Positions 9,613 to 55,800 of a stretch of DNA of 64,000 nucleotides are shown here, piece by piece (the stretch's first letter is position 1; each line of letters opens with the position of its first letter). Origin of the DNA: Dysidea avara. Taxonomy: Eukaryota > Porifera > Demospongiae > Dictyoceratida > Dysideidae. Location: positions 29,048,525 to 29,112,524 of the forward strand of contig NC_089279.1 in assembly GCF_963678975.1 (NCBI RefSeq), given 5' to 3'. The translations under genes were made by a program, and so were the position numbers. The notes below the pieces were generated by a model. That model had not been told where the DNA came from. It did no database searches and saw nothing but the letters and a program-made list of their open reading frames with translations.

Positions 9613-9771
9613 GACTGGGATAACAAGAGATCTACAGTACCCAAAGAATTATTGTTAGTGACTGAAAAGGACTGCAAAAGAGTTTTGTTGACTTAGAGGT
9701 ACCTCAGTGTTGTATTTTAGACAGAAAGAGAAGTGTTGTATTGAGCTGGTGGTGTATCTACTACACATTTG

Positions 9772-10845
9772 ATGATGGCTGCTGCTAAACAAGTTAAGAA
9801 GATTGTCAACAGTCTCAGTTGTAATCCAATATGTAGCAAGTACCCCAAGTATCTGTCTTGTCACCGTTCATATAGTGTCAAGTATCCAGAGAAGATTAAG
9901 AAAGAGCCAAAGATCACATGTTCCTGTATTAGTGTGGGCTGCTTTTCGCCTCACCAAGTTGGAGAAGTGAAAATTTCAGTGCGTGTCAATGGAAAGCACA
10001 TCAAGGGAAGTCCTTATAGTGTTGCAGCTAGTTGTGATTACACCTCACTAAGCAAGCGGCCCAGTAAAATAGTGAACAATGATGGTGGGATGGGTGAACT
10101 CTGGGGTATTGGGTGTAGTAGGAATGGTAAATGGGCAGTAGCTGATGAGTCCAACCACTGTGTATACCTGTACGATGGTGAGGATCAATTGGTGAGGAAG
10201 ATTGGTGGGGAAGGATTCAATAGTGGTCAGTTGTATTGGCCTAGAGGAGTTACATTTGATGATGAAGATGACCTGTACGTAACTGATGGTCACAGGGTAC
10301 AGAAGTTTACTACTGATGGTGACTACTTGTTTGGGTTTGGTAAGGTTGGATCTTATGATGGTCAACTGAAGTGTCCTGTTGGTCTCACAGTACACAACGA
10401 CAAAGTATATATTGCTGACTTTAATAACGATCATGTCTCAGTGTTTCTTATTGATGGTAGATTTCACCAGACTATTGGAAGAAGACAGTTTGGTGCTCCT
10501 TGTGATGTAGCAGTTACCAGTAATGATGAGTTGCTTGTGGTTGACTGGGTTGATGACTGCATATACAGGTATACACTGGATGGTGGTTATATTGGCAAGC
10601 TCAGTGATGAGCTGCGTCAGCCAGAGAGTATCACCATTGATTCAAATGGCTTTATCTTGGTGGCTGATGGTGGTAATCATCGAGTTGTAATATTAGATAA
10701 ATTTGGAAATCTTGTACACAAGTTTGGATCCAGAGGATCTGGTGGTGGTAAATTTTTAAGTCCATATGGAATTGCTGTCAACAAGAATGGTAACGTTTAT
10801 GTTAGCGATTATCACAACAAGAGGGTTCAGATCTTCTGCTACTAA
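9772..10845 (+). CDS. TRIM-NHL-derived protein, copy 3 (complete, intronless)
   Basis: The 357-residue frame starts at the first ATG (9772); the upstream in-frame TTG is not a start. Residues ~17-52 align with a TRIM RING finger (CNPIC, PKYLSCHRSYS, then ITCSC), but the first Cys pair is spaced C-x3-C and several metal ligands are replaced, so zinc binding and E3 ligase activity are doubtful. B-boxes and coiled coil are missing. The sequence passes straight to the end of a filamin-type Ig domain (HQVGEVKISVRVNGKHIKG) and then six NHL repeats, a whole beta-propeller. It lies between truncated copy 2 and broken copy 4, with a TATA box at 9605 and AATAAA at 10945. Likely an internally deleted TRIM2/3/71-type paralogue acting through its propeller. 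Confidence 0.85.
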   Translation: MMAAAKQVKKIVNSLSCNPICSKYPKYLSCHRSYSVKYPEKIKKEPKITCSCISVGCFSPHQVGEVKISVRVNGKHIKGSPYSVAASCDYTSLSKRPSKIVNNDGGMGELWGIGCSRNGKWAVADESNHCVYLYDGEDQLVRKIGGEGFNSGQLYWPRGVTFDDEDDLYVTDGHRVQKFTTDGDYLFGFGKVGSYDGQLKCPVGLTVHNDKVYIADFNNDHVSVFLIDGRFHQTIGRRQFGAPCDVAVTSNDELLVVDWVDDCIYRYTLDGGYIGKLSDELRQPESITIDSNGFILVADGGNHRVVILDKFGNLVHKFGSRGSGGGKFLSPYGIAVNKNGNVYVSDYHNKRVQIFCY

Positions 10846-20572: not shown

Positions 20573-23500
20573 ATGGCGTCGATTAGTACCAAACTCGAAT
20601 TTCCACCCGGATTTAAACAGGAAAATCGGTGAGTCCCGCTGTGTTTCGTGCGTGCTAAGTCAACCACCCCAACAGTTGGCTGAGATGGTGTCCAACTTCG
20701 CCTGAACTGTTAGCAGAAGCTGAAGCTAAAATATTTCAACGTAAGGTGATCTTGTTTAGTATTGTAACAGTCATTGTTAGGAACAAGCGTATAATCATTT
20801 AGGCACAAGGGGCCGGATCACAAATGACTAGCTAGTGTATGTATCCATGTTGGGGCCACTTTAACGTGATTTGGGTAAAAATGCCAAGTGTTTAGGGTGA
20901 GTAGGATGGCGTGTAAAATCGGAGTGGCTATTCCAGTGCCGTACAAATACTTTTTACTATTCTTACAGCAATCTTCCATCTATAGAATCAGTTGCATGGT
21001 AAGTTTGAGGCAAGCTAGGGCCTGGAAGGCGTAATAGAACTGTAGCTTGATGTAGGGGGTCCCAGGTTCAACCCTAAGTGTTACACTTTTTTTGTTTGGG
21101 ACCGTGATTTTTTGTGTAAGGTTTATTCTTTTCACATATCTGTCCTATGCTGCATGCTACTCTAATAGAGGATATGTGCTATTAATAATTTGAACAAAAA
21201 ATGATCAATATAACAAGATTTGCAGTGTGCCCAAGAATTTTTGACGGTGAATGACCATCGTGAATCCCATACAAAAGTACTGGTAGCAAATGCGGCTCGG
21301 ACTATAACTCGCCACATGAACTACGGATGGGGCTCCTCCTTCCAGTTACTCTGTTATGCACGTAAAGGAATCTATCGCTCTGGAGAAACTCGCGTAACTG
21401 GTCTAGTTTTGGGGATTCGCACTTTCTATGCATACCTACAATACATTCATTCAAGATTGAGTTTCAAGATCATGCAGAGTTATGTTGGATTTAATTTTTC
21501 AATCTACATGAGTTAGTTGGCCTGCAAATCAGCCAACTAAGTTGGCATGGCCTTGTTATCATACCTAACTGTTGGAAACAACAAGAGGGTGTCACTGTAG
21601 TAGCTACATTATACCGTCAATGATATGCAACAACAGGACAGAATGAATCTCTACATGTAATGGGGTAGCTATGTATGTTATCTGCTTTAGTTGGCTGTTA
21701 ACTTGCTATAGTGGACTAATCAATTACTGTTTATTTTGTACCCACTGGTTTAATGTAGTATCTTGTATTGATGTTTAACAAGGTTAACACCTCAGGGCTT
21801 TTTTGTCCATGTTTAGCTACATTAGCTATATAGTACTTGAGTGTTGTATCTGTAGGAATTGACAAGATCTTTAAGTATCTGTTCTTCTATAATGTACAGA
21901 AAATGATATGGGTATGATAGGAAGAGTCAACCACTCATTCTGCTGAGTTGTATATAGGAGTGTAATCATTGTCTCACCTGTCACATGACCATGTAGTGTA
22001 CACTACCATCTCCACAGTGTGTCTGGTGTTATGATATCACCTTCCAAATACTTTGATGTCTGGGGTAATTTATCAGTAAGGTGTCCTTCTTTCAGGGCCA
22101 TTGCACTTGTATAAACGAGGCCATATAGATATGTTTATCAGAAGAGAATTCACGATCGTACTTTCCAAGTATGAGTTTTGCATGTGTTCCTATCCATCAA
22201 GATGGACACTTGTAAGATACTGGGTCTAGTGTTAGAGTGCTAGCTAATAGTAGTGCCATATACAATTGTCAGTTCATTTGGTTTTGTCCTGTAATTGGCT
22301 TTAAAAGAGTGCTCCTGTATGTAGGTAGCTATAGGTTTAGATGTCTGTGTTTACTCTACAAACCATTGTTTTTATTTGTCATATGATAAACCTTGTAATA
22401 ACTTGTGGTCCTTCATGTGACACACATATTATATATATATATACTAAGTAGGACAGTTACAGTATTGTCTTGAATTACTGCTGGTCCCATATAAATGCCT
22501 GATTTTGTACAATTACAGGGAGAATGTTGAATACACATAGTGCATTCATGGTTTCTAACACAATTTGTGCTGTGCCACAAATGATAACGTGTAAAAGGAA
22601 AACATCAAGAAGTGTACAACTCCCAATTGGAGATTTTATGGGTTGCTTGACATACTTAACATGCTGCATCGTGTATTTTTGTGTGTAGGTATTGAATCTG
22701 ACTACAAGACCAGTTTTGTTAAAATTGATGATGACTGTCATATCCGAACACTTATCACAGAACCCAGTGATCCCTCTAACATACAGAACACTCCAATAGT
22801 AATGATTCATGGATTTTTAGGTGGTATCGGGATACTGATTAAAAACATTAATGCCTTGAGCAAAACAAGAAGAGTGTTTGTGTTTGATTTGATGGGATTT
22901 GGTAGAAGTTCTCGAGTTCCTGTACCTGGTAATGCAATGGAAGTCGAGGAGAGTTACGTTTTGTCAATAGAAAAGTGGAGGCAGAAAGTTGGACTAGACA
23001 AATTTGTTCTATTAGGGCACAGTCTTGGAGGATTCATGTCCACAGCATATGCCCTTCGTCACCCTGACCAAGTGAAACACTTAATATTGGTAGACCCATG
23101 GGGTTATGGTATTAAGCCAGATGATGACAGAGTGGTTTGGACAAGAAATGGAGAAAATGTTTATGCTTCCAGTGTCCCCATGAAATATAGAATGTTCCTG
23201 TATTTTGGTACTCGAGTCAATGCTCTTTCTGTACTGAGAATTTTGGGACCTCTAGGTAAAGTTGTGTTATAGATGTTGGTTTTCAAAAAATTATTTTTTT
23301 GTACAATATATACAAATTACATATTTGCTTATGTGATTGGATCTGTTGAACCATGACATGTTTGTGCATGGAAGAGTCAAATATCGCTTATTAATGTATC
23401 ATAAATAACCATGAGCTATGGCTGTGACCATCAAATTTTCACTGTTCCTATAGCCATTTCTTACCTTTCAGAGTCTTAGAGTGCAAAATGTTGCCTGTGG

Positions 23501-44246: not shown

Positions 44247-45239
44247 TTACAGATATATATTAACAGTATTCCCATCTGCCATTGAAAACACTGTAGAGGA
44301 AACCATACGATGGCCATTGAAGTTAAGGGAGATACATTCCAGAGGTTGGACCTCTAGACATATGTCAATTGCCTTTAAGACTAGTGAAGATAAAACCTGC
44401 TGATGTGACTTGACATCATTGGAGATGACAGTTAAGTCATCAACAAATCCCTTTGCTTTATGCAGTGACAAATAGCAAATCTTTGGAAGGGTAGCAGCAG
44501 CACTAATGGAGGTTGATGGCTGGGTGGAAGGTTTATCAGGGCGGTATACTTTGCGATATCTGCTTGTGTAGCACCATTCCACAACGTGAAGGTCCACAGA
44601 CTGTTCACTATCACCATTATCATAAGCAAGATCACAGGAGCCATCACAATGATAGGAAGTCACTTTTGCTCTATACCATCCGGATGGTGAATCATCAGAG
44701 GAGTCTGACCGTAACACATATATTGGAACCTCCACAGGGGGCAGCCCAATGAAGTTAGAAGCCAGTAGTTGAGCAGAGTAACCACAATCCTCTGAGGTGG
44801 AGAGATAAGCTAGCAACAGATTAATGGCTAAGTTGAATAAAATTGGTGATAGAGTATCACCTTGGAAAACTCCACGGTAAATAGAAAATACGGTTGTTTT
44901 CCATTTCTTGGTAGAGACATATGCTGTCAGTTTTGAGTAATAGCTGGTAATGTAAGAAACAACAGCAGAAGGTAACTTGATGTACTGCAAAATATCAAAG
45001 AGGTATTGATGACATACTGACCCGAAAGCATTTTTCAAGTCAAGAAATGACATGACAACGGGGTTCTTAGTAGTTCTGGCATTATCTAATAGTGAATCAG
45101 TACTAAAAATATGTTCCGTTGTGCCATTCACTCCGTAGAGAAAACCCTTCTGAAATGAAGGATTTAACAATCTGTTGTTTAAAGCAAACTTCTCTAAACG
45201 AATAGATAGTATACGATGAAAGAACTTCCCAAAAGCCAA
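44247..45239 (-). pseudogene. Reverse transcriptase core with a Tudor-like insertion
   Basis: The 330-residue open frame carries RT motif A (SFLDLKNAF), motif B (GVFQGDTLSPILFNL) and motif C (GFVDDLTV). Between B and C relatives have a few dozen residues; here residues ~148-262 are inserted in frame. The insertion contains GWYRAKVTSYHCDGSCDLAY then DNGDSEQSVDLHVVEWC, which has the W/Y-x-A-x-V...DxxYDNGD...V pattern of Tudor/agenet-type folds, and a Ser/Thr/Pro-rich linker. The frame reads through insertion and motif C without a break, so it is part of the protein and not a late insertion. The Tudor-like fold is my inference from motif pattern. Confidence 0.7.
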
Positions 45240-45656
45240 GGTCAGGGTAATGGGACAGAAGTTCTTGGGTCTCCTTTCTTATAAAGTAATATGGTTTTCC
45301 CTTGACACCAACACTGGGAGGGGGGTGGAATGTAATGACATCTTGGAGAATAGTGTGGCCAAAAACAAATGACAACTAGGTAGCTTCTTCAGATGGAAAT
45401 AGGTAATGTTGTCAATCCCTGGAGCAGATGTTGAGGAGCACTTTTCAGAGCACATTTAACTTCACAGGGATGGATTGGGACATATCAAAATCATGTTCAT
45501 GATCTGATATTGGCCAAACCCGAGGCCAAACCTCCTGAATCCAATCAGGAAAGCCACTATATCCAGCTGGAGTAGAAGCTATAGATTCAAAGTATTGAAG
45601 ACACTGATCAGCAGAGAAATCAGGATCCACCTTTTGAGGTGGACTGGGCAAATTTC

Positions 45657-46856: not shown

Positions 46857-49800
46857 ATGAAGATAATTTTTGTTCTTGCCGCGTTCTGCCTCGTTCTAGT
46901 AAGTGCCAACCTACTGGTGAAAGATCCCGACGAAATATCATGTACTACCGACTTTTCTTGTAGTAAGTTTGTCAGTGTGCTCGTTTAACCATAGATAATA
47001 TATACCTTACCCGGGATTGGAAACCAGACACACTTCAATACAAAAATCGCGAGCCGTCAGCATTGTAATAATTAACACTTTCGCTTTGATATGTAAGGTT
47101 TCACCTCGCCGACAGAAGAAAGGAAAGAACGGGTAGATAAGCTACTAGTTGTGAACATGAAGAGGATTTACCGTGGTGGTAAGAACAATACTGTTGTATT
47201 ACTTGCATACAATCGTCAAAATTTTGAACAAATAGCGTTTGACGCGGTTTATGCAAAAATGGCTTTTTAGTCGTACCCTCGACTTTTGGGGTTCGTAGAG
47301 CAGTGTGGGAGCGATATATTTCGATGTAAACTACACTGTTTGAAAGCTGAGACATTAGCGGACAAAATCATGCAACTTAAAACCCTTAGTTTTACCGTTT
47401 ATGCCATCAAATTGCAGCGCAATTGCGAAGCAAGCGATTTTGAGGTATTAAGTTTTGAGGCCTACAGGTCATTTTCTAAAGGCTACTAACTTTCTTTCTT
47501 AAGTATTTCCTGTAATTCATATGTGTACAAACAAAATAGGATAGTTTTAAGGCTGCTGACTTGTACTGATGTAGGCGAAATCCTTGAATCTTCAAGTGAA
47601 TGCAAGTATTTCCTTTTCAGAACTGTTGCTTTATTATTATGCATATAGCTATAGTTTGCACTGGATTTTTTTACAGATGAATGATAGGAGAGGTCACAGA
47701 AAGCTTAGACTTCATAGTAACAAACACTGGCAGCCTAAACCTAAGAGGCTACCAGTTTCAATTCCTTTGAGAGATGTGTCAGTGCTGAAGGTGTCTCTGC
47801 CACTGTCATTTCAGGTGTCTCTGCCTTTGTGCTGATTTGTTGATGCACCAGTCAGGTCTTTGGATATTTTGCACAGTAGACTGAAACAGTGTAATGGCAT
47901 TCCTTCAGGTATAGTGACACAGTGTGTGCAGATGCTTAGCTAAATCGTTCCTTTTACAGGGTGGATTGATACAATCCAAAATGCAGAATTGAGAATATTC
48001 CAACTGGGTTATTTTGAGTCTGGCACTGAGGTTTTAAGATCGTTAGCCATTAAGGAAGACTTCTCATGGATTGTGAATTATAAAAGAGAAACTCTGAAGC
48101 CCTCATCTGCTCTTTTGAAAGACATTCCGACATCTCTTAATTCAGGTATTGGTTGGATTGCTGTACGATATTAAACATGCAATGGAAATTTTATGTTTCC
48201 TGTAGTTTCACATGTATCAAACTTTATCAACATTCTACGTACAAGCAAGGTTTGCGAAGGCAACTGTGATGATGCATTCTTGAAGCTCCCAAACATTCAG
48301 AATGGCGAACTCAAAGATAATTCAAGTAAGCTGTCCTTTCTGCATACATTTAACTGTATGTAAAGTCAATAGAACATGACAAGTTTTATGTGTGCATACC
48401 TTTGTTGTGTTCACGATACTTTGATGTGAATAACTTTTGTAGGAACCAGCACTGTGGCAGCACTGGACACCGCAAGGACTGGTAGTTTATCCATCTATCA
48501 TGTTGAGTGTGATATATTGATGAACAGTACAGAAGAGTCCAGGCTGTGCATATGTTGTAAGAAATACAAGAAAACACTATCAGCTATGCTGTCACGTCGC
48601 CGAAAAGATCAGAAGACTCATCCCAGCAGTCATACAACTTATGCGAATTTGAGTGCGTCTGAAAAAGATGAGCGTTTGAGAAATCTACACCAGGAGAGCA
48701 AAAAAGCAAAGCTTCGTGTTTGTCGATTACAAGAGAAGATTTCAACTGCAGCTACCCAAGACGGTGTAACCTTAAATGTTGATCTGCATGATGATATGAA
48801 GGCTATGATGGATGCAACCACAAAGCAAGTACATTCTATGTATCCAGAAGGATCTTTTCAATGCCTTTTTTGGGACCAACAGCAAACAGCGTGCTCTATA
48901 AAGGACTCTCGGTCAATGAAGTGGCACCCACTAGTCATTAAGTGGAGCTTGTATCTCAGACATTTATCTGGAAAATCATATGAACTACTGCGGAAAACAG
49001 GGTGCATCAAACTGCCTTCACAAAGAACACTGCGTGATTACACCCACTATACATCAACTACCATCGGCTTCTCTGCAGAAACAGATCGAGAGCTTTACGA
49101 CATTGCTTTTTTGAGTAACGAGCTTAACAGATATGTCTTCTTAGTCATGGGTGAAGTTCATATCAAGACTGACCTTGTATATGATAAACACCAGGGTTCT
49201 TTAATCAGCTTTGTCAATCTAGGCAACACTAACAATAGACTGCTTGAATTTGAGAATGCTTTAGGTGAGACACAACATGAACAACAACTCGCAAGTTCAA
49301 TGTTGGTGCTAATGGTGAGAGGCATTTTTCAGAAGTTGAACTACCCATATGCGCAGTTTGCTTGTAACAACCTCAGTGGAGAGTTGATGTTTGACCCTGT
49401 GTGGGAGGCAATATCAAGGCTTGAGAGAATGGGCTTCCGTGTTTTAGGAATTACGTGTGATGGTGCATCACCAAATCGTCGATTGTGGAAACTCCTCAAT
49501 GCCAAAGATGAAATGGTCTACAAAGTACCCAACCCTTTTGCACGAGAGGGACCACGTGACTTGCATTTCATATCTGATCCTCCTCATTTGCTAAAAACAA
49601 TTAGAAATAGCTGGAACAGTAACAAACGAAAATTATGGGTAAGTTGATAGCTATAGCTGCAATGAGAGTACGTTATTTTTCCTTTTACATTTAGTGCAAT
49701 GGTAAAGATATATCATGGGGGCACTTAGAACAACTTTACCTTGATGATACAGGAGGACTACAAGCAGTACCCCAACAAGGAGGAGTTATTAGACAAGTGA

Positions 49801-52800
49801 AAAAGCTGAGGTACGAGCATGTTTATTTAACGACGTTTTCGAAGATGAGAGTGGATTTAGCTGCACAAGTAAGTTCACAAGAAGCATGCTATATAATGCA
49901 TTATACATGTGTAGGCTCTTAGTGAGACAGTGGCTAAGTCGCTTGAAGAGAATTATGGTGAAGAAGTACAGGAAACAGTCAAGTTTGTTAAAATGATCGA
50001 TAAGTTTTTTGATTGCTTCAACGTATCCAATGCTGTTACTGGATACCACAGCAGGAAATCATTCAAAGATCCCTACACTTCTAAAAAGGATTTTCGTTTG
50101 CAAGTATGTTATTGGTATTATTATAATGTATGCATTGGGGTGTGACATTGTTTGTAGACAGTAGACCATTTTAGAGAACTACTTAGTAGATGTTGTACTT
50201 TATTGTTTGCTTATGCACTGCAGTGGCTTGAAGAAGAATTTTTGCCTTACTTGGAGAACTGGGAGAAAAGTGTCTATGAAAGGGAAGGATTTTCTCCAAA
50301 ACAAAAGGAAATGATGTTAATGCCTAGGGAAACTCGTCTTGGCATCACTGTCACAGGTATTGCATGCAGTAATAATATATTATTTTAATTATCAATTAAT
50401 CTTTTTTAGTTAAATCATTTGTGGAACTGGTTAAATACATATTCACCATACCAGGAGTTAAAATCTTCTTGAGTGAGAGGCTTTGTCAAGATCCTCTTGA
50501 AAATTACTTTGGCTGCCAAAGGCAACGTGGAGGGAGACATGAAAACCCAAATGTCAGTGATTTTTGTAAGAATAGTCAGGCACTGAAAGTAATCAATTCT
50601 GTTTGTGGAAGCATTTCAAAAGGAAATTGCCGTGGCAAGAAGCAGTCTATAGATATAGAGCAGGAGAGCAGGCCACTTAAGAAACGGTGCAAGGCTAAAT
50701 GTAGGGACAAATCTTATTCTAAGCTTATAAAGCTACCAAGAGTGTTCAAAAGCAAATTGAAGTTACTGGCAGCCAAAAAGGTTAAAAAAAAGTCATTTGC
50801 TCCAAGAAAAGAATTGTTTACAGCTTCAAAATATTTGGATATTCCTGTACAGAAAGTTGTTACTGTTGATATGCCTGCCAGTTCAAGCGATAACCCTAAC
50901 AGTAATGATGTGCCAGCACCAGTACTTAATGAAAAAGCAACATCAGATGTGACAGAAGCCTCCCATGAATCTTGCTCGAATGATCAGGTGAAAAGTCATA
51001 AGCATCAGCAAACTTCTGCAGAAATAGACATTGTTGAAATGGATGAAAAGGATACACTTGCTGGCAGTCACGATAGAAATGATGTGACAGAAATGGACAT
51101 ATCATTTGAGCAGAAGGCCCATTCTACTGATGATGATATGATTAGTGAGGCACTAGGACCAGGACCTGCGGAGGAAGAATTATCAAGGTGTTGTACCATT
51201 ACTTTAACACGTCATGACTTCTGGACTTTAAAAGATACCGGATGGTTAAATGACCAAGTAAGGCTATTCGTGATGTAGTACTTATTTTTTATGTGTTGCC
51301 ATTTTCTTTTGCTAGGTGATAAACTGCTACATGAAATTAGTAGCTGAGGCCAACACAGATGTCTACGTATACAGCACATTTTTCTATCCAAAGCTTGTAC
51401 GTTTTGGTTCCCAGGCAGTGTGCCGGTGGACAAAGGAAACTGATTTATTTAGCAAGAGGTTGTTGTTGGTTCCAGTGCACCTTGGAGCACACTGGTGTTT
51501 AGCAAGCATAAGCACAGCTGACCTACAGCTTGTTTATTATGACTCGCTGCATGAACCAAATCCAGCATGTTTGGAAGCATTAAAATCATATATTTTAGAG
51601 AAATCATCCAACTGTGCCTCTACCACGGAATGGAATTGCTCTACTTCGCAAGGTGTTCCACAACAGACAAATAATTCAGACTGTGGTGTGTTTGTATGCA
51701 GAATTGCTCAGTGCCTGGCTAACAAAACTTCTTTCAACTTTAGTCAATGTGATATGGCTAGCATTAGGCAACAAATGGTATTAGAATTACTTCTGCAAAA
51801 GCTGTTGCCTCATATTCCATTTTTATTATCAATTAATTAATATTTTGCTTGTATCATTTACTGTGTTGTTGTAATCACAAAATAAAGTTGTGTTATGCAT
51901 AGCATTGCAAATGTTAATAATATAATATAAGCTGCTATCATACAAGTCTCTACGTAAGCTTTTTGACCGCTGTGTACTCTTTTTTGCTGACTGCTTAAAT
52001 TTCTCCATCCAAAAGCTCGCATATGAAAATCCACGGATAGTCACATAAAGCTGCACTATTTCCTTAAGAAGTGCACTATGTACCTCCTTCTCACCAATCT
52101 CAAAATCTGCAGTGGAAATCAGCCAATAAAATTCAACATCATCACTGGAGATAACTTTTTCAACAATCTCCTCTTTTTTTCCAGCTGCTGGGTTGCTACC
52201 AAGTAACATTTTTAGGCATTCTCTCACTTCTTCTTCTATTGCAATAAACAATATAAATGTTGTTTCTTTAACATACCATAGCCCACCTCTATCTAGTGCT
52301 AATGTCCATTCTTCAGAACTGCCACATTCACTATGTTCTTCGGGTGTGTGTCCTTTGTTAAAGCCATCAGGCACAATACCATCTCTTCCTTAAGCTCATG
52401 TTTACTGCGTTCGATTTTCTTACGTAAATGTCTACAAACATAGCCGGCAGCATAACAAAGAGCATTGCCTTCGCGTTTTGTTACAGCTGGCGCTGGATCA
52501 ACCTTGGTTTCAGCTGTACACCCTGTCACATGATCACTAATGTATCCCCTGAACAAAATATCAGTTAAATGCTGATACAGGATAGGTGTAGCAGCCACAT
52601 TAGCGGAGTCCAAAAAATTTACCCAGTCCTCTCGAAATTTCTCTGAAGAGCACAACAGAAAAAAGTTTCTCCAAAGTTTCTCACGATTGCATGATTTCTT
52701 CTTACAAGAGCTCATTGCCTGTTTCAGGTCTTCTGACAATTTCAAAACAAATGTTGTAAAACAGTTATTGTTGGCAGCATCAAGACACCAGTCCAACAGA

Positions 52801-55800
52801 ATCTGTGCCACTTTTCTTGCTTCAATTGCTTCTGAGGACATTATTTTAAATGAATCATCATTCAATACGCTTCTGAGTGCTTCCACAAAAGCATCTTTTG
52901 CTTTGGGACCTGCATTGAAAGAAAAAGACAGGTATGGTATAGCATAGTAAGGTATATATTATCTATGGGTATAGCTAATGAATGGCTACATCAACATAAC
53001 TTGCACACAAACAAGGCCAGGCCAGGCACATCAGTGATTGAATGTTTAAGCTGTAAAAATGCCCAAATTTTGCTACCAGCGCTGGTTGTTTATTGTTAGC
53101 TATAATGACAACGAACCAGCATCGTCATTTCCATCGGATTCTCCGCTCTTCCGCTTCGAGCTCTTCTTTCTAGCACGAGTTCTTTTACGAGTTCCAGCAT
53201 TCGCCATTTTATAAAACACGGACTGAATTACGGAATTACGTTACACTAAACTCGCGATACTACAACGCTGAGTGAACTTGTTGATAGGTGTTGATTGCCT
53301 CCGTTTCCAATCCCGGGTAAGGTATATATTATCTATGGTTTAACGTACGAATTGATCCAGCAATCCACAGACACGGACAAATATGATGTGACGAATCTGG
53401 CACTCTCATTTAATCCTGACCCACCAGAGAAAGGAAAGAACGTCACCGTCACTCTTACTGGGACTGTCAGTAAGTTAAATCATTCAAGGGGTAATCACTG
53501 CCAATAGTCCTGCCATCTGTGACCTGGATCAAAATCAAATCAAACGATCATAACGAAAATGTATGTTAAATTGTCAAGCAATCAAGGTTGTCAAAATCGA
53601 GCCATCAAAACTTTACAATTGCTGTACAACACCATAAGGCCACTATTTGGTGATCTGTTTTCACCTGAAAATTCCAAATGTAGAGTGTGAGTGGGTGATT
53701 ACCATAATACTTGCTGCAATATAGCTAGCTAGGTTATTTTCATACCTCTATACCCTCCAGGGCCTGATATACTGCATAACATGCAATTTGCTAACTTAGC
53801 CATAGCTATAGATGTAGCTACATACAGATTTCCTTCGTCATGTGATCAGGGATCAACTTGCTTGTAAACTTCATTGCACCAATCTTTCACATTCTCTGGG
53901 CTACAATGCACAAGGTAGGTAGCTACTGTATAGTCTTGTGTGGCTAGACCGCTTTTTCTACCACGGTACTTATAATTTCACACTGATAAGTGGCATGGGA
54001 GAAAAAGCGGTCTGGCCACACGAGACTAGCTAGTGTACATGTATGAACTGCACATCCTCAACATTTGATTAATCAGATGAAAAAATGGTTAAATCTTTAA
54101 TAATGGGGAAATACGTGCAGCAGTAAAACATGCAGGCTCTGATGAAAAACAGAAAGTCATTAAATAGTGGCCTAAAGAATTAAAATAGCTAGCTATATGC
54201 AAAAATAGTGTGGTGGTGTTGAGGGTCAAATAGCAGCATGTGCCAACTGCCCAAACTAATTACTTATAATACATGCAAAGACACTTACTTAGCTACATAA
54301 ATTTACTAGTGATGCACCGATACTACTTTTTCACTACTGATCCGATGCATTTGTGGCCGGAAATAGCCGATGCCAATCCAATACTGATACTTTACCCCAC
54401 AGGAATATAGAAGAAGCAGATAGTGATTTGAATAAAAGTTAATGAACCAGCTACTAAACGCATTTGCTAATCTCATTTGCTGGTTTTGTGGCTATCAATT
54501 AAGCGGAAGATAATAGTTTATGGCTTCAATGAATCTTATTTCGTGGCTTATTGCCATTTCCAATGCTAGTAACTGGCTTCTTTCAAAGAATTCATGGCTT
54601 ATATCAGCTCTTACTCAACTCCGTTCGATGCGCTATGTACACCGCCATCTTTAAAAGTAATTAAATAACGTTATTTAAAGTATCAGTTGGTATCAGGAAT
54701 TTATAGCTTTACCGATGCAAGTCCGATACCGCCATAATGGGTTCGATACCGATACTAGTATCGGTATCGGTGCATCACTAAAATTTACAGAGCAGGAGAG
54801 TTTAGAACACTTACAACAGGGACACAAGTAATTGAGAGTACAATCATTGTTTACATCAAAATTGTTGACAAAATGACTCCAAAAAAAAGTTTTTAGTTGC
54901 CTTTCGATTTCCCGGATACATTTTGTTCCCGGTCACAGATGGTTCTACTAGTGACTACCCCTTGTCATTCAATGAGTATCTGGGTGTGGTATAATCATGT
55001 CTTGTAAGCCTTCTCCATAATGATGCACTAACTTTATACATTAACTTTGTTTTTCCCTGTAATTCCATGTGCTTACTATGTCAAATGTAGTGTACCACAT
55101 CAAAAAGTTACAAAGAAAAAGTAAGTCTGGTCACCTGGGGACCAGAAACATATAGCTAACTTTGCACGGCCTTAGGTTACTTTTAAAATGAAGTAGGGAT
55201 CCAAGTGATGAAACAAGAGATTAATGATGGCATTACAAGATATCTCAGTGGGAAAATCCCTACATTGGCATGTTATAACAATTATTTTGTTCGATGCCAA
55301 AGTAGGGATTTTCCCACCAAGCTATGCTATAAAACCATCATTCATCTCTTGTTTCACTACCTTTTATCGCTTGGATCCCTACTTCATTTTTGAGTTAAAA
55401 AGTTTATAATTAGGGCGAGCCCCATACTAACAAGAGTCCTGAAAATATTCCTTGTTTTGTCATACATATGTATGACTGTGTCATGGATTTTTGACGCTAA
55501 CCAAAGTGTTATAAATCATTCCATATTTGGTTGTGCATGTGTTGGGCAGTGCCACTTACTTTGTGACACTAGCCCGAATCTTGTAAATCATTTCGTGCTC
55601 TAAATGGAAGAAACAAAATTAATGCTACACCTTAACCGCTCAGCGTCTCAGGGAACTTTATAGATTGCAGATGAAAAGAGAAACACCAGAAAAAGCAGAA
55701 TTGAGGTGCTGCTGAACTGTATCCGTAGAATCTATGTATACGGGCTATGCCTTTACCCGTATTTAATTATAATCACTATTAGTATTAAACGCTTGATCAT

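Follow-up and report, generated by a model that had tools for sequence, protein, structure and literature searches.

A P-superfamily transposon of the sponge Dysidea avara with a predicted transposase–SUMO protease fusion and an apparently separate, convergent C-terminal-domain gene

How did the transposase of a P element, the textbook transposon with a single-protein transposase, come to carry a SUMO protease in its own reading frame? The question is raised by a 6348-bp element copy (46990–53337, plus strand) in a stretch of 64,000 nt from Dysidea avara (contig NC_089279.1), hereafter the window, whose positions are used for all coordinates; the genome searched comprises 550.8 Mb. A sequence-only reading of the window had described a single element, bounded by terminal inverted repeats (TIRs), in which one protein joins a P-type transposase to a complete SENP/Ulp1 protease, and the Pfam domains and catalytic residues given below agree with it. 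It did not mention a minus-strand gene that runs from 53207 to about 51926. Our analysis points with good confidence to a P-superfamily DNA transposon with two genes, of which the window holds a recently spread and probably dead copy: a P transposase core is predicted to be fused to a SENP1/2-type protease and a convergent gene is predicted to supply the C-terminal domain.

Gene 1 (open reading frame 1, ORF1; 47960–51840, plus strand) is modelled as a transposase–SUMO protease fusion with at least eight exons (47960–48145, 48206–48325, 48443–49638, 49695–49868, 49915–50103, 50224–50356, 50410–51257 and 51316–51840), GT..AG borders and an open frame of 1122 codons; the true first exon lies upstream of the model. 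The AG/GT exon borders are kept in 9/9 other long copies aligned, the internally deleted L015 not counted. Pfam matches TNP-like_RNaseH_N (PF21787, 4.8e-22; the N-terminal part of the RNase H fold, in exon 3), TNP-like_GBD (PF21788, 3.4e-16) and Peptidase_C48 (1.4e-33), and recovers both domain types that had been read from the letters alone. RNaseH_C (PF21789) scores 23.0 bits, just below the cut-off of 24, and ElaD-SseL-like_C, also below cut-off, overlaps the protease. At E ≤ 1 Pfam finds nothing in ORF1 beyond the three TNP-like domains, Peptidase_C48 and ElaD-SseL-like_C: no SUMO-like domain, and no THAP domain in the model without its true first exon. The nearest solved relative of the transposase core is the P transposase 6p5a (5.9e-15), while those of the protease are human SENP1 (3.1e-45), then SENP2 and SENP5. 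A scan of viral contigs held no relative of exon 3.

Both sets of catalytic residues can be followed through the family. For the DDE triad, the first Asp is present in 9/9 other copies with that position and the second Asp and the Glu in 10/10 copies, window included, with the catalytic status of these residues taken from motif position and not from structure. The SENP1/2-like protease core of exon 8 (51316–51840) holds His (51490–51492), Asp (51541–51543), Gln and Cys (51682–51684) in the window. By its motifs, ORF1 is a predicted P-superfamily core with catalytic residues and not of the THAP-bearing type, since ORF1 has no THAP match and the THAP places listed in the genome almost never lie near a P domain. 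The protease domain likewise has the catalytic His, Asp and Cys and the oxyanion Gln of Peptidase C48 (Ulp1/SENP) enzymes, from which SUMO cleavage is predicted.

That transposase and protease lie in one frame, as the sequence-only reading had it, is borne out by the spliced frame and, at exon 7 (50410–51257), without any splicing. Exon 7, a single uninterrupted frame of DPLENYF motif, linker and protease start, falls within a 292-codon open stretch (50400–51278) in which DPLENYF, the third catalytic motif, and WLND, of the protease, stand 251 codons apart. Because both motifs share one open stretch, the join is independent of splice prediction. The same holds for L009, of the window family, and the interval from DPLENYF to WLND is without a stop in three families (window family 251, L029 243 and L031 249 codons), L029 and L031 having unlike linkers. 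The L029 linker from RNase H to protease is a run of short KSQCQPSPMLPTTIV-like repeats and differs from the linker of the window family, though similar to it in length. Weighing against this reading, the two motifs do not lie in one open stretch in 5/9 sequences tested: L026 is without the RNase H part, and L030, L032, L039 and L040 have stops or frame changes.

The arrangement recurs across the genome. Among the 150 PF21787 places listed (150 of 447 candidates scored), 27 have an Ulp1 domain downstream on the same strand within 6 kb, at 1.7–2.4 kb, and none has one upstream or on the opposite strand; 30 of the 76 Peptidase_C48 places found (150 of 277 candidates scored) take part in such pairs. 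The fused loci read were the window family, L029, L030, L031, L032, L039 and L040, together with the subfamily copy L026. These seven fused loci represent about five diverged families, with DNA identities of 96–99% for L039/L040 and mostly 94% for L030/L032, and the protease His, Asp, Gln and Cys are kept in 7/7 other fused loci. Compared with L026, the ratio of non-synonymous to synonymous change (dN/dS) is 0.169 for the protease (182 codons, L009), 0.538 for the linker (57 codons, L009) and 0.157 for the second gene, ORF2 (238 codons, L019), dS being saturated in most comparisons wider than window family versus L026.

The transposase tree bears on how often the protease was acquired. It comprises 30 rows, L041, the 31st, having been dropped for low coverage, and has one clade (support 100/99) that takes in all seven Ulp1 rows as well as L036 and L047. 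A single capture of Ulp1 would fit this tree. It is at odds with this that L036 and L047 sit in the clade yet are without Ulp1, and losses or two gains are therefore possible. Two independent captures of a SENP1/2 protease by related P lineages are, in our estimate, a doubtful though serious alternative. The free tree requires two changes for Ulp1, and the proteases of the two groups share only about 37–38% identity. However, a single Ulp1 clade is not rejected (approximately unbiased test, p 0.547; the constrained tree is 0.78 log units higher), and in the group to which the window family belongs, the matches to L031, L039 and the first part of L040 are hardly closer, at 38–49% identity, so that the domain evolves fast. 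The protease occupies the same place in the protein in both groups, behind a linker of similar length and with the same intron site, directly after the codon following WLND, in 7/8 loci, the window among them, the GT being lost in L026; the shared site could nevertheless derive from the host gene.

Gene 2 (ORF2) converges on gene 1 from the element's right end. Its exon 1 (53117–53207, minus strand), inferred from one of the in-frame splices that enumeration allows, encodes a basic N terminus; exon 2 (51926–52909, minus strand), frameshifted in the window, has its end set by the stop in other copies and encodes a putative homologue of the P transposase C-terminal domain. ORF2 begins 130 bp inside the right end, with the same start in 8/9 copies read, window included, and ends, by the other copies' stop, within about 90 bp of gene 1. 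Homologues occur in all ten other P loci L029–L038 and in L026, L039 and L040, which rules out a chance reading frame. The deletion copies L022, L024, L025, L027 and L028 hold short ORF2 matches, and L023 holds none. A genome search found 122 ORF2 places (121 of 442 candidates scored; pieces of one element counted apart). For 88 of these a listed P place lies no more than 9 kb away: 87 are downstream of it on the opposite strand and one is downstream on the same strand. Conversely, 82/150 listed P places have an ORF2 partner. The gap between ORF2 and RNase H has a median of 2473 bp where Ulp1 was found (31 pairs) against 1382 bp where it was not (57 pairs), as expected if Ulp1 was inserted between them. 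An exception is L047/L059, where the RNase H end continues in frame through a canonical GT..AG intron into an ORF2 homologue, in a copy that carries stops.

What ORF2 encodes is suggested by its family match and by its position. Searches of NCBIfam and PHROGs returned nothing credible for ORF2, but Tnp_P_element_C (PF12596) is matched by 4/11 ORF2 proteins, weakly (best E 0.037), and no other family is matched more than once. Genome-wide, this domain has 17 places with E-values of 0.02 to 1.5, each weak alone. Ten of them, including 4/4 over the cut-off, lie 1.0–1.7 kb downstream of a P domain on the opposite strand, and none of the 17 is near a listed P domain in any other arrangement; of the remaining seven, two overlap ORF2 places and five are without a listed partner. 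The sequence within 4 kb of a listed P place makes up about 0.3% of the genome, and with 10/17 places convergent to P, position is therefore informative even though the E-values are weak. An AlphaFold2 model of the ORF2 family is helical (pLDDT 75.7, pTM 0.61), in keeping with the fly enzyme, whose C-terminal domain is described as entirely helical and as touching both transposon and target DNA (PMC7776569). As such, ORF2 is apparently a separate convergent gene for the C-terminal domain of the P transposase. Several observations pull the other way. The PF12596 matches are short (about 30–40 residues) besides having those E-values, and the ten convergent places amount to only about four families, as judged by equal frames and spacing. 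Neither ORF2 nor an ORF2 profile matched any P transposase chain in the PDB by sequence. Finally, 34/122 ORF2 places and 68/150 listed P places are without a listed partner, many copies being decayed.

An alternative use of the same domain has to be weighed here. ORF2 could descend from the transposase C-terminal domain and now be a regulator, such as a repressor or a DNA-binding competitor, with gene 1 transposing alone. That it has an inferred start of its own and a basic N terminus would suit such a role, separate transcription would permit independent dosage, and the Drosophila P element itself makes a shorter repressor protein. We consider this unlikely, as ORF2 is kept at the low dN/dS given above and accompanies more than half of the listed P places, and the fly domain contacts the DNA of both transposon and target (PMC7776569). 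Moreover, in loci without Ulp1 the ORF1 match stops near residue 760, so that no second copy of the domain is seen in their ORF1.

The reading we prefer is that the two genes together supply one enzyme. Gene 1 would provide the core that carries out catalysis in a P transposase, with its RNase H fold and GTP-binding insertion, and at the C-terminal end of this core would stand a SUMO protease of SENP1/2 type. Gene 2, read from the opposite end, would provide the helical C-terminal domain which other P transposases carry within one polypeptide. The two products may assemble into one cut-and-paste transpososome. There the fused protease would remove SUMO at the site of the transposase; its substrate could be the transposase or else silencing or repair proteins that depend on SUMO, on donor or target chromatin. 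Such removal could favour excision, integration or expression of the element. On a broader scenario, to which we give even chances, the P transposase of this animal lineage would now have two subunits: an inversion would have split off its DNA-contacting C-terminal domain in most P families examined in this genome, and the freed C terminus of the catalytic subunit would then have captured, on one occasion, a host SENP1/2 protease, which would accompany the transpososome and remove SUMO from factors of silencing or repair where the DNA is cut. It tells against the functional part of these readings that purifying selection on the protease leaves its substrate unspecified.

A quite different task for the protease, which the sequence-only reading had suggested beside freeing the transposase from SUMO, would be maturation of the fusion itself, splitting it into transposase and free protease; a C-terminal domain set apart by a long linker of low conservation would allow this. 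We regard self-processing as improbable, since the protease matches SENP1/2, enzymes whose substrate is folded SUMO, cleaved after the Gly-Gly tail, and ORF1 holds no SUMO-like domain in the Pfam search above. That transposase and protease are separate nested elements abutting by chance, the refutation which the sequence-only reading had itself proposed, is contradicted by the open frame common to three families, by the constant order and spacing in the 27 listed places, which extend over about five families, and by selection on the protease; nothing was seen that speaks for it, and it can be set aside.

The ends of the element also fit the P superfamily. Identical TIRs of 35 bp lie at 46990–47024 (plus strand) and 53303–53337 (minus strand), with termini CATAG/CTATG fixed by copy comparison. 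The perfect repeats of the sequence-only reading thus stand; their length of 36 bp and the limits 46989–53338 do not. Similarly, the 5-bp TTTAA duplication proposed there proves to be the inside of a 7-bp GTTTAAC, at 46983–46989 and 53338–53344, and 5 bp does not fit the other copies. Twenty regions were fetched, and duplications were sought beside CATAG...CTATG in 11 copies, window included, an end being missing or unclear in the other fetched loci; an exact 7-bp duplication is present in 10/11: GTTTAAC in the window; AGAATAG, GTTGTAG, CCACACC, GCATGTC, CCTGTAG, GTGACCC and GACAATT in others; ATTTTAT in L026; and GTTGCAT in a 352-bp copy within L016. L019, where five terminal bases are unaligned, has none. 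The supposed departure from P elements in duplication size accordingly disappears, 7 bp being also the length given for the P-superfamily element Galileo in the portion of PMC4168063 concerned. A 22-bp copy of the TIR end (52947–52968, minus strand), lying in the ORF2 intron, recurs in 10/10 family copies spanning the place, window included, one with a mismatch, and was not found in the subfamily copy L026; it is possibly a trace of right-end rebuilding or a transposase site.

The search for further copies documents recent spread of the window element family. The left 312 bp match 42 genome places (40 of 131 candidates scored): 30 at 97–100% identity, some over part of the query, ten at 74–77%, which form a second subfamily, and two with only the 36-bp end. 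Six other full-length copies are 98.0–98.9% identical to the window element, and with the 30 close places they support the spread. Recent activity, as the sequence-only reading had it, therefore stands for the family; the intactness claimed for the window copy does not. Residue 338 of its transposase, the first catalytic Asp in 9/9 other copies with that position, is Gly (codon 49150–49152, exon 3), and its ORF2 is frameshifted. As a result of these two lesions, the window copy is probably dead rather than autonomously active, and mobile at most through the proteins of other copies. Among the window copy and ten copies aligned to it, gene 1 is free of early stops, frameshifts and large deletions only in the window copy and L009, and the window gene 1 runs nine codons beyond the stop common to the other ten.

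Derivative copies were also seen. In the full-length copies L011 and L021, exon 7 is one base short and the frame is lost near residue 845, ahead of the protease; these perhaps represent a lineage spreading without a working protease. L016:294–645 is the 352-bp non-autonomous copy, which has its own 7-bp duplication and adjoins another copy's right end. L022–L025, L027 and L028, of the 74–77% subfamily, align to the window element mainly at the ends and over one short internal piece, as expected of internal-deletion derivatives.

Among known P-superfamily elements, Drosophila P, Galileo, zebrafish Pdre2 and 1360 share with the window element an RNase H transposase with a GTP-binding insertion. 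The window family has the duplication of 7–8 bp and the CA...TG ends that mark the superfamily; Pdre2 ends, in the stretch of PMC10983969 that lists them, start CATACC... and likewise begin with CA. In contrast to these elements, the window element has no detected THAP domain, apparently makes its C-terminal domain from a separate convergent gene, and carries a fused SUMO protease on its predicted catalytic subunit. THAP9 of zebrafish and human shares the P-type core, but is a single protein with a THAP domain and an in-line C-terminal domain (PMC10983969 and PMC7776569, in the parts concerned). A C-terminal domain within the polypeptide, the trait of Drosophila P and THAP9, was seen only at L047/L059 among the loci found.

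Ulp1-type proteases are carried by CACTA, PIF and KDZ elements as well as by Mutator elements, all with transposases of other families, and compared with these the best solved relatives of the window protease are SENP1 and SENP2. The Ginger paper (PMC2836005), in the sections relevant here, describes Hydra Ginger1 with Ulp1 (PF02902) at the transposase C terminus, as in the window element, but on a Gypsy-integrase-like transposase and with OTU as an alternative C-terminal domain; Mutator elements with Ulp1 domains are named there too. The same sections raise the possibility that pathways of repair or of ubiquitin are what the Ulp1 and OTU domains of Ginger1 and Mutator act on, and the term 'P elements' has no occurrence in that paper. 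Neither Ginger1 nor Mutator-like element (MULE) transposase types were found in ORF1 by Pfam at E ≤ 1. In open-access titles and the beginnings of abstracts, a scope outside which Repbase reports and most subscription literature fall, no report of a P transposase–Ulp1 fusion or of a split convergent P transposase was found. The window element would extend Ulp1 capture to the P superfamily. With a transposase that brings its own SUMO protease one could ask in concrete terms how SUMO pathways restrain or aid cut-and-paste transposition, and a large natural set with the C-terminal domain as a separate gene, next to one in-line family, would permit tests of that domain's role and of its action in trans.

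THAP domains, restricted to animals according to the part of PMC7776569 that treats them, are frequent in this genome, with at least 150 places over the cut-off, many in open frames of over 500 codons. Of the best 150 taken (150 of 586 candidates scored), one lies within 6 kb of any of the 150 listed P places, downstream of P; these places perhaps belong to another transposon or gene family. Around the element, the insertion site resembles by eye a host exon of signal-peptide type, the piece queried having no Pfam match. A reverse transcriptase ORF (RVT_1, 2.2e-17; 44247–45278, minus strand) marks a retroelement close to the P element. Two host-like ORFs lie further away on the plus strand, one with NHL repeats and a filamin match below cut-off (9745–10845) and one with an alpha/beta hydrolase (22595–23272).

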